From the NCBI RefSeq assembly GCF_000003815.2, contig NC_049992.1, forward strand, positions 3,395,703 to 3,459,702: a DNA stretch of 64,000 nucleotides, read 5' to 3'. Positions 1,445 to 31,881 of the stretch are shown here, in pieces. Each line of letters begins with the position of its first letter. The stretch's first letter is position 1. The position numbers and the translations under genes are program-made. Under the pieces are notes generated by a model, which saw nothing but the letters and a program-made list of their open reading frames with translations, did no database searches and had not been told where the DNA came from. Origin of the DNA: Branchiostoma floridae. Its lineage: Eukaryota; Chordata; Leptocardii; Amphioxiformes; Branchiostomatidae.

Positions 1445-4400
1445 TTAGACTAGCGAGTCCCAATTAAAATCGTCCTCTATATCGTCGTTAGTGAACTGTG
1501 AGGCCGCGGACTCCACTGGGATGGGGTGCTGCGGCCGCGGGTGCGCCCGCGGGCTGACGCTGTGGTGCGACCCGAGGGACGACGTGCTCCCGCTGGCATT
1601 CATCACGCTCAGGTGGTTCCCGGAGAGGTGCATGGAACCCGTCATGGACGTCCGGGTGCCAAGGCTGCCACTGGAGATAGTCGAGATAGAAGAACTAAAT
1701 GCAATGTATAATGGACAGTAGATAACTCTGTTTTAGGATAAGTGCATGGAACCCGTCATGGACGTCCGGGTGCCAAGGCTGCCACTGGACACAGATAGGA
1801 TAGAACAAATGAATATAGACAGTAGAAAACTCTTAGGTAGCTTCAGCATGGAGCTGGCCATTGCAGTCTGGGTGCCGAGGCTGCCACTGGATACCGGTAG
1901 GATAGAACAAATTTCAAATATCATGGACAGTAGGTTGTTTCAGGACAAGTACATGAAGATGGTATGTCCAGGTGCCAAGGCTGCCACTGGAAGAACATCA
2001 ATGAGAGTTACATAGGATACATTTTGTAGATAGACATTTCTGACAGCATCAGGGTGCCACTGGACATAGACAAGATAGAAGAACTAAATGCAATGTATAA
2101 TGGACAGTGGATAACTCTGTTTTAGGATAAGTGCATGGAGCCGGCCATCGACGTCCGGGTCCCAAGGCTACCACTGGACACAGATAGGATAGAACAAATG
2201 AATATAGACAGTATAAAACTCTTAGGTTTCTTCAGCATGGAGCTGGCTATTAATGTCTGGGTGCCAAGGCTGCCACTGGAAATAAATGGTTATATGCCAA
2301 TGAGGGTTACATAAGGAGACTAACGGATAGATTTTTTACATACACATTTCTGATAGCATCCGGGTGCCCGAGCTGCCACTGGGCACAGAATAACTTGATT
2401 CAATGTCATACCTGGGACATTACTATAGGATAATGTTCGATACGGGTGTCTTGGGCCATATCACATGGGGTTCTGCAAGTGCGGCGATTAAAAAATTTGT
2501 CAATGAATACCTGATTTTGACTTTGAAATTGCTGTTGTTACAATTTTTTGTTTGAGGACACATTACTTTGTCAACTTTTGTCACATTTCGCATCAAAACT
2601 TGTGTTTTCTCGGGTGGGTGTGACATACTGCAACAACCCTTGGCTGCAACCCTCTTCATGTAACTAAGATCATAGTACACATGCTGTAGGATACAGGTAG
2701 GCTATTAATATTGGAGACAGTGATACAGCATCTAACTGACCTGTGATGACTGGATCCGTAACTGCTGGCGTTACTGGCCTTACTCGCTCCTAACGGGTCG
2801 TTTCCACCATCGTGAAGTCTGGTCGAGGCAGCCTGAAAATCAACAAGGTTTGAAACGCTGAAACTTCTGTCTATTTGGAAGTAATTGGATGGACAGAAAA
2901 CTTTTAAACTTAACCTTGTAGCTTTATTTGGAATTCTGCGACTGGATATTATTGCAGACCATTGTTGTATCCCAATCCAGCATAGTGTAACCCAAAGCAT
3001 CTAAGTGGCTTACGAGCCTTGTTCTGTGGTATATACAATGTGTTTGTGGAAATTGGTGAATCAAACACTTTTATTCTTTGCTTTGGGACCAACGAGTTTA
3101 GTCTTTGGGACAGACGAGTTTAGTCTTCTACCTCCCGACTGAAGTCATGTACCCATTTTTTTTACACCTGGGTGGAGTGAGGAAGGCTGTCTTAAGTGCC
3201 TTTTATAAGGGGGAATGGCAAGTCTCGAAGGTGCAAAATCTAGGTTTTGAGCCCAAAACTCTACCAGTTACGCCACATCAAAAAGTCTAACCTGTGCAAT
3301 GCCAGTTTGGTTGAAGAATCGGCTGAGGGAGGAACAGAGATCTGAGAACTGTGACGGGTCCAGACACCAGTTATTCAGGTCTGCCTGCTTCATACTTTCC
3401 ATTAAACCTGAGGAAACATGTTCAGAACATGTCAGTATTACAATAATTATCGTGTATGGACTAGTGTGAACATGTACTTCACAGAAGCTAAGGTTAGAGA
3501 ACTGTGACGGGTCCAGACACCAGTTATTCAGGTCTCCTTGCTTCATACTTTCAAATAAACCTGAGGGAAAGATGTTACATATGTTAGTGAGAAAGTGTGT
3601 TACAATTTTGTATGGACTAGTGTGAACATGTACTAAACTGGAGCTATGGTTAGAGAACTGTGACGGGTCCAGACACCAGTTATTCAGGTCTGCCTGCTTC
3701 ATACTCTCCATTAAACCTGAGGGGAAGATGTTCAGAACTGATAGTGAGACAGTGTATTACATGTACAATTGTGTATGCACTAGCTAGTACTAGTAAGAAC
3801 ATGTACTATACAGGAGCTAAGGTTATAGAGAACTGTGAAGGGTCCAAACACCAGTTATTCAGGTCTGCCTGCTTCATACTCTCCATTAAAGCTTAGGGAA
3901 AGATGTTACATATGTTAGTGAGAAAGTGTGTTACAATTTTGTATGCACTAGTGTGAACATGTACTACACTGGAGCTAACGTTATAGAACTGTAACGGGTC
4001 CAGACACCGGTATTTGGAGTCCAACTGCTGCATACTTTCCATCAAACATGGGAAACACAATAATTAAAATGTAAATGTCTATGTTAAGTTTAAGAAAAAG
4101 TGTATATCTATATCCATAAGTCTTTATTTGACAAGTAAACACAAACCAGAAATTGTTTTTATTTTACCTTGAAACTGTGTCATGTCGATGTCGCCCCAGT
4201 TATAACTGCCTGCCAGACGACAGCTTTCCTTCAACAGGTCCAGACTGGTCAACCAGTCTCCAGCTGTAACCATGGAAACAGTAATCATGGAAACATGATC
4301 AATCATCATGACCAGAGATGAGAATGATACGATGATGATTTAAAAAAACAAACATTTAAACTGTTATTAAACATCTGAGCTGAACTTTAAATCTTCTTAC

Positions 4401-31089: not shown

Positions 31090-31881
31090 ACAAACTTAAC
31101 ACTAGCTGTATGGTATATGTCATCATATATTATTTGTTTGTTCGTTTTTTATTATTTTTGATAGTTCAGAAGTACTAGACTACATTCTGTCACTGCAGAC
31201 AGAGAGATAATGCTACAGACAACCTTTATGGTATAACCCATAACATATTATTTGTTTGGTTTTGTTATCTTACAGTATAACACTAGCACATCAAGCCACT
31301 ATGGACAGGTAGAATACCTTTTAGGCAATTGCAAACTTTCTCTTTTCAAGACATTATCTATAACATTTTGTTGGGTTTTGACAGTTTAGGTGGACGATGT
31401 GCAACCCTTACCAGCAATGTGCTGGTTGGAGTATAGCTGCAGCTTATTCAGCTAGAGCCATTCTGATAAGACGGGCTTTGACCCGTATAAGGAAGGGCAG
31501 GTAACCAGTTTGCTTGGTCACAAGCAAAGACAATTCAAGAATCTTTGTATGTCTAACAGATATATTAAGATTCCTGAACATACATGTACAAGAAAAAGTT
31601 CTTTTGAATAATGTGGTATTTACCGTACATTCGTTAAGAAGTTCTTTTGAATGACATGATGTTTAATGTACATTTGATAACAAGTGCTGCCAACATGCAT
31701 AGCAGTACATTAAAATGTATAAACTGCCTCTGTAAGGTAAGCTAAAACTATGTAGTGTTTAACGTGTAGATGTGCAATAATACAATGGAAATATAACGCG
31801 ATGAAAACAAGAGTCTCTACAGAATGATCCCCCTCCTTAATCATGCAACTCTAAGGGTCAGATAAAATGTAACGGAGATAC

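Follow-up and report, generated by a model that had tools for sequence, protein, structure and literature searches.

Exon ends and splice sites copied in tandem into the adjacent introns of three neighbouring amphioxus genes

In three neighbouring genes of the window, the 64,000-nucleotide stretch of DNA analysed here, roughly one exon end in five has been duplicated in tandem, along with its splice site, into the adjoining intron. A tandem unit crosses the exon-intron boundary, the defining feature of the structures called mirages, at 12 of 60 coding junctions (nine strong and three weak cases), the three linked genes counting as one sample from a window selected because of the pattern. These arrays are probably near-neutral tandem duplications that are tolerated through exon definition and that lengthen the introns in which they lie.

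The first half of the window holds the three genes; in models rebuilt from the DNA, these comprise 33 coding exons, bounded by 60 coding junctions. GT-AG is present in 60/60 coding junctions, and all three coding sequences are open as far as the stop. The Pfam families Forkhead, Proteasome, RhoGAP and RLIP76_Ral-bd were recognized in these genes, the ralbp1 query being the sequence up to residue 444. The models match Branchiostoma proteins, with the exception of the first ralbp1 exon (18592-18624), which is unsupported by protein P0001 and is uncertain; 58 junctions are left if that exon is omitted. The top protein matches of all three genes are from Branchiostoma, as expected of a cephalochordate host. 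For the first 444 residues of ralbp1, the best match was the record of a hybrid, B. floridae x japonicum (100%, rounded, with 97% query coverage); residues 180-461 of FOXJ3 matched the nearest Branchiostoma proteins at 93% and 99%, and psmb6 matched its nearest at 96%. A six-frame Pfam search of the region of 32-64 kb, in which stops were written as X and the cutoff was E<=0.01, found no family. The gene hunt there also took open reading frames of at least 75 amino acids, and two ralbp1 frames, used as positive control for the six-frame search, recovered RhoGAP. This region served as the non-coding control, in which small or unknown genes may escape detection.

Table 1. Genes and mirage arrays in the window. 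The live junction is that of the copy that continues the reading frame; units and spacings are in nucleotides.
Feature	Position	Strand	Live junction	Description
foxj2/3-like gene	1445..12169	-		10 coding exons; DNA-built model, Pfam Forkhead, Branchiostoma proteins
foxj exon 10 acceptor mirage	1622..2382	-	1670	8 copies, unit ~102
foxj exon 8 acceptor mirage	3344..4057	-	3407	5 copies, unit ~156; 86% of intron 7
foxj exon 4 acceptor mirage	6203..6384	-	6261	2 copies, spacing 98, 98.8% alike
foxj exon 3 donor mirage	6688..6909	-	6863	2 copies, spacing 120
psmb6 (proteasome beta subunit)	13192..16485	+		7 coding exons; DNA-built model, Pfam Proteasome, Branchiostoma proteins
psmb6 exon 3 donor mirage, weak	14449..14628	+	14475	2 copies; 26 exon nt repeated at 14597
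ralbp1	18592..31089	+		16 coding exons, first one uncertain; Pfam and Branchiostoma proteins
ralbp1 exon 9 acceptor mirage	23699..24143	+	24055	3 copies, unit ~156; 88% of intron 8
ralbp1 exon 11 acceptor mirage	26845..27083	+	27044	1 clear and 1 partial spare
ralbp1 exon 11 donor mirage	27143..27409	+	27183	2 spares, GT absent from both
ralbp1 exon 13 acceptor mirage	28733..29028	+	28996	2 copies, spare 219 nt upstream
ralbp1 exon 13 donor mirage	29052..29534	+	29099	4 copies, unit 134-139
ralbp1 exon 14 acceptor mirage, weak	29735..29968	+	29938	2 spares
ralbp1 exon 16 acceptor mirage, weak	30662..30935	+	30913	2 spares, one of them poor

A scan that compared 80 nt at each junction with both flanks gave a score of at least 30 at 14 of the 60 junctions. 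Among them are all 12 that a preliminary description of this DNA had named as carrying tandem exon-edge copies, and the occurrence in three unrelated genes (foxj2/3-like, psmb6 and ralbp1) was likewise borne out. The nine strong junctions scored 76-150: the foxj exon 3 donor and exon 4, 8 and 10 acceptors; the ralbp1 exon 9, 11 and 13 acceptors; and the ralbp1 exon 11 and 13 donors. Tandem Repeats Finder and BLAST of the sequence against itself showed arrays at these strong sites. The three weak junctions, at the psmb6 exon 3 donor and the ralbp1 exon 14 and exon 16 acceptors, scored 34-39, with BLAST E values from 8e-6 to 3e-5. The remaining two (ralbp1 exon 7 and exon 10 acceptors) are intronic arrays, whose matches extend just 7-8 nt into the exon.

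The arrays comprise 2 to 8 copies spaced at ~90-220 nt, with BLAST identities between copies of 71 to 99%. At each junction, the exon part of the longest copy measures between 23 and 89 nt, a range slightly wider than the 25-70 bases first reported. The earlier copy numbers agree for foxj (2, 2, 5 and 8), psmb6 (2) and the ralbp1 exon 9 acceptor (3), exon 13 acceptor (2), exon 13 donor (4) and exon 14 acceptor (3); at the ralbp1 exon 11 acceptor, exon 11 donor and exon 16 acceptor, the third copy is degraded. With the weak arrays counted, arrays make up 17.8% of the intronic DNA of foxj, 7.0% of that of psmb6 and 19.1% of that of ralbp1.

The copying concerns exon edges and not exon interiors. 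Each 40-nt exon edge was compared with its own adjacent intron and with 150 same-length non-coding segments as controls, and the intron beat all controls in 13 of 55 testable edges (5/60 were untestable). The ralbp1 exon 7 acceptor won by just 19 to 18, and the 12 junctions named before by larger margins. Among segments 60 nt inside the exon edge, 1/27 beat all controls, likewise at ralbp1 exon 7, and the contrast between edge and interior has a Fisher P=0.02.

An assembly artefact, in which haplotype fragments of a highly polymorphic genome were joined in tandem, could in principle produce such copies. Passages of the mirage literature lend it some colour, since two PGBD5 sequence versions differ in copy number (PMC3902484) and the draft BflGb6 sequence appears aberrantly assembled (PMC3087553). 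On the other hand, arrays that reach 8 copies, spaced in an ordered way and with identities over the range given above, are unlike the joining of one allele to another, and the PGBD5 repeats were confirmed in re-examined Sanger and Illumina data (PMC3902484). We regard an artefact as very improbable.

Mirages have been described in print from amphioxus Adh3 and TnC (both as cited), the globins BflGb6 and BflGb9, and PGBD5, according to passages of PMC3087553 and PMC3902484, so that the mention of mirages at the Adh locus in the preliminary description was correct. Two more loci, retinol dehydrogenase and presenilin, are cited by title in PMC3087553. As portrayed in these passages, the published mirages are like those found here: tandem copies of exon-intron boundaries at 5′ and 3′ ends, many with AG or GT, and with apparently normal splicing. 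Their units measure from 10 to ~160 bp (PMC3087553, PMC3902484), and length instability is a feature reported for the Adh3 mirage. The published cases concern one or two junctions per gene, as far as these passages go, whereas in the window 12 junctions are affected, spread over three unrelated genes that lie side by side, and controls were included. A related arrangement is found in amphioxus VCBP3, whose introns hold whole exons or parts of exons, in some cases along with splice sites, that resemble adjacent exons; unlike the mirages of the window, these copies are not described as tandem arrays in the cited passages (PMC2632668). Intron gain by tandem duplication, as reported in the literature, also involves a duplicated intron-exon boundary, but there a new intron arose, while here existing introns lengthen. 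Intron gain via mirages has been proposed previously (passages of PMC3087553 and PMC3902484). No genome-wide study of mirages was among the open-licence literature matches listed; one may exist elsewhere, above all in subscription journals. The phenomenon itself is not new; the present analysis adds its density across three genes that are neighbours but unrelated, the controls, a reading of the spares as mostly neutral and the FOXJ3 lead described below.

Both flanks were searched at the 12 junctions. Relative to the copy through which the reading frame runs on (the live copy), the spare acceptors lie upstream and the spare donors downstream; the position of the live copy is partly dictated by the building of the coding models. 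The live copy thus delimits the shortest exon, and the live acceptor and donor are the pair closest across it. Splice sites closest across the exon are preferred where the flanking introns are large, according to a study of alternative splice sites (PMC9225289), and the introns that bear mirages here measure 353-1070 nt. In the mechanism that we favour, a tandem duplication with a unit of ~90-220 nt straddles one exon edge and its extra copies fall in the intron. Exon definition would pair the acceptor and donor that are closest across the exon, and the spares would be ignored. Selection would hold the live exon copy while the spares decay nearly neutrally, and unequal exchange or slippage would add and remove spares and so change the copy number. 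The net outcome of array expansion would be intron growth.

The extent of such growth was estimated from the intron lengths. Subtraction of the spares, which disregards other indels, reduces ralbp1 intron 8 from 403 nt to ~91 nt and foxj intron 7 from 760 nt to ~120 nt, and three further introns become 3.0-3.6 times shorter. The best explanation is that spare copies have lengthened some introns 3-6 fold, as judged from the sequence. The earlier suggestion of intron growth was in this sense upheld, and in the extreme case, ralbp1 intron 8, arrays take 88% of the intron.

It had also been suggested that the spliceosome passes over the extra copies. In keeping with that, residues from spare copies were found in none of five Branchiostoma ralbp1 proteins, and a comparison by eye showed nothing inserted at exon 3 in psmb6 of B. 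lanceolatum. The comparison proteins are mostly predicted, and each 90% cluster is represented by a single sequence (12 members in the case of P0001). Data on Adh3 and RT-PCR of globins, in passages of PMC3087553, suggest that regular splicing is undisturbed by mirages. For the mirages of the window, these proteins would be compatible with normal splicing and the use of one copy, and spare sites may be used at a low level.

AG or GT is retained in 23 of 28 spares, a set that takes in partial copies, and therefore site strength alone cannot reject them; 21/28 have AG or GT and score at least as high as the weakest live site of the same kind, and 6/28 at least as high as their own live site. Since many spares match live sites in strength, the choice of copy needs positional information. 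If used, 24 of 27 spares (the copy at 2059 in the foxj exon 10 array being omitted) would shift the frame or introduce a stop, and therefore rejection should be efficient. The other 3/27 all belong to foxj and would be read as in-frame inserts free of stops: exon 8 at 3560 and 3716, and the exon 3 donor at 6743.

The exon part is less divergent than the intron part between live and spare copies in 8/8 arrays compared, and also between spares in 3/3 arrays (0.306 versus 0.393, 0.085 versus 0.125, and 0 versus 0.093). These counts come from internal units only, and the figures for the foxj exon 10 array are rough, since one of its intervals merges two units. Changes between live and spare copies number 15, 15 and 38 at codon positions 1, 2 and 3, and 37 of 65 are synonymous. 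This count leaves out the misaligned ralbp1 exon 11 donor copy, the poor exon 16 copy, the partial exon 11 acceptor copy and a chance exon 13 match, and some exon parts were trimmed to the alignable stretch. If the spare alone changed randomly, 28% of changes would be predicted to be synonymous (P=1e-6); if a neutral spare stood beside a live copy free at synonymous sites only, the share would be ~44% by our own estimate (P=0.025 for the excess). Both the conservation of exon parts between spares and the 57% of synonymous changes, against 44%, exceed pure neutrality. This excess could be due to conversion by the live copy, to the greater difficulty of aligning intron parts or to some function.

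The last of these has a stronger form, in which the spares serve as alternative exons, as decoy sites or as enhancers of splicing and are held by selection. The synonymous share, the exon parts better preserved even between spares, the retained AG or GT and the three open inserts in foxj would all fit it. However, most spares break the frame or add stops, the five ralbp1 proteins lack spare residues, and most of the pattern is what a neutral spare would show next to a live copy under constraint. We consider selection on the spares improbable, and functional spare exons in particular were judged unlikely. The spares look mostly like near-neutral relics, with room for exchange between copies.

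Whether the junctions are favoured sites of duplication is a separate matter, in which the results point in both directions. The preliminary description had proposed to ask if tandem repeats overlap junctions more often than expected, and within the three genes the answer was in part positive. When units were placed anywhere that spares the coding sequence, 9 of 13 arrays spanned a junction against 2.97 expected (P=4e-4). The 13 are the non-exonic arrays of at least 40 bits in the gene spans, the exon 12 array, the ralbp1 stop-codon array and the three weak mirages being excluded. Without three junction arrays that possibly rest on their exon part, the result was 6/10 against 2.24 expected (P=0.011). 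The array density of 32-64 kb, taken as yardstick, predicts ~1.5 (P=3.5e-5 for 9 and 0.021 for 5). When the junctions were shifted rigidly across the entire window, P was 0.012 at score 30 and 0.010-0.10 across thresholds. These values, together with the copying of exon edges and not interiors, speak for a process in which exon edges actively seed arrays through splice-site sequence, splicing or R-loops, or a step in composition.

Other results speak against active seeding. Of the intron positions that are over 100 nt away from any junction, 20% lie in such duplications, nearly as many as of the junctions themselves (23%). A rigid shift inside the gene span gave P=0.187, 0.115, 0.40, 0.26 and 0.095 at scores of 25, 30, 40, 60 and 90, although this test is weak because the introns are themselves taken up by long arrays. 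With the exons masked, 6/11 arrays touch a junction (P=0.023), or 5/11 (P=0.085) if the array of intron 6, which merely abuts, is dropped. In addition, the sample consists of three linked genes. The enrichment of arrays at junctions is thus suggestive, and seeding by exon edges is a tentative reading that we rather doubt; with near-equal coverage inside introns and the weakening under masking, the original suggestion that splice-site sequence may drive the process was not borne out.

Duplications may instead arise anywhere and be seen for longer at exon edges. There, a constrained master copy would give longer-lasting homology and continued exchange, and the array would remain detectable while purely intronic ones fade. 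The smaller divergence of exon parts, between live and spare copies as between spares, and the drop in enrichment once exons are masked are in its favour. Against it, five junction arrays are still called and touch the junction with exons masked at 40 bits (foxj exon 10 acceptor; ralbp1 exon 9 acceptor, exon 11 acceptor and donor, and exon 13 donor). This persistence of anchored copies is a serious possibility, though we would put it somewhat short of even.

A lead on the fate of mirage units comes from foxj. The B. lanceolatum FOXJ3 protein P0121 carries an insertion of 17 residues at the 3′ edge of exon 5, which repeats the adjoining 15 residues and in which C-K fits read-through of the last base of the exon and a GTAAG donor. 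No duplication is present at the foxj exon 5 donor in the window, and a matching insertion is absent from P0122 of B. belcheri. In this one database protein, the insertion looks like a 51-nt mirage unit turned coding, with the distal donor apparently in use, contrary to a strict closest-site rule. An annotated PGBD5 exon composed of repeat units is doubted by its own authors (in the passage of PMC3902484). A wider proposal would be that tandem duplications across the amphioxus genome preferentially arise or are anchored at exon edges, with arrays at about one fifth of junctions, that introns grow largely from copies of their own exon ends, and that units occasionally become coding, as B. lanceolatum FOXJ3 suggests; exon definition would be what allows a genome of this kind. 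We hold this proposal to be speculative. Published mirages were described gene by gene, to judge from the passages cited. If the density found here is genome-wide, amphioxus would offer a large natural experiment in splice-site duplication, covering the choice of copy and the tolerance of exon definition, and a visible route for intron growth and for new coding sequence from exon edges.

Other repeats and variants were observed in the window. A tandem duplication (31060-31268, 71% alike) takes in the stop codon of ralbp1 together with the beginning of its 3′ UTR, and therefore exon-edge copying extends beyond splice junctions. Intronic minisatellites at 22431-22540 and 26053-26214 stop 1 nt and 13 nt short of the ralbp1 exon 7 and exon 10 acceptors, respectively. 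Exon 10 of ralbp1 (26228-26293, 66 nt) is missing in 3/5 Branchiostoma proteins and is likely an alternative in-frame cassette exon. Exon 12 contains a coding 15-nt minisatellite (28008-28184, KKPAE repeats), whose length varies among Branchiostoma proteins. In the intergenic region, a CGACAC-rich array with units of ~26 and ~97 nt occupies 41607-42139, and a 20-nt array lies nearby at 42694-42891.
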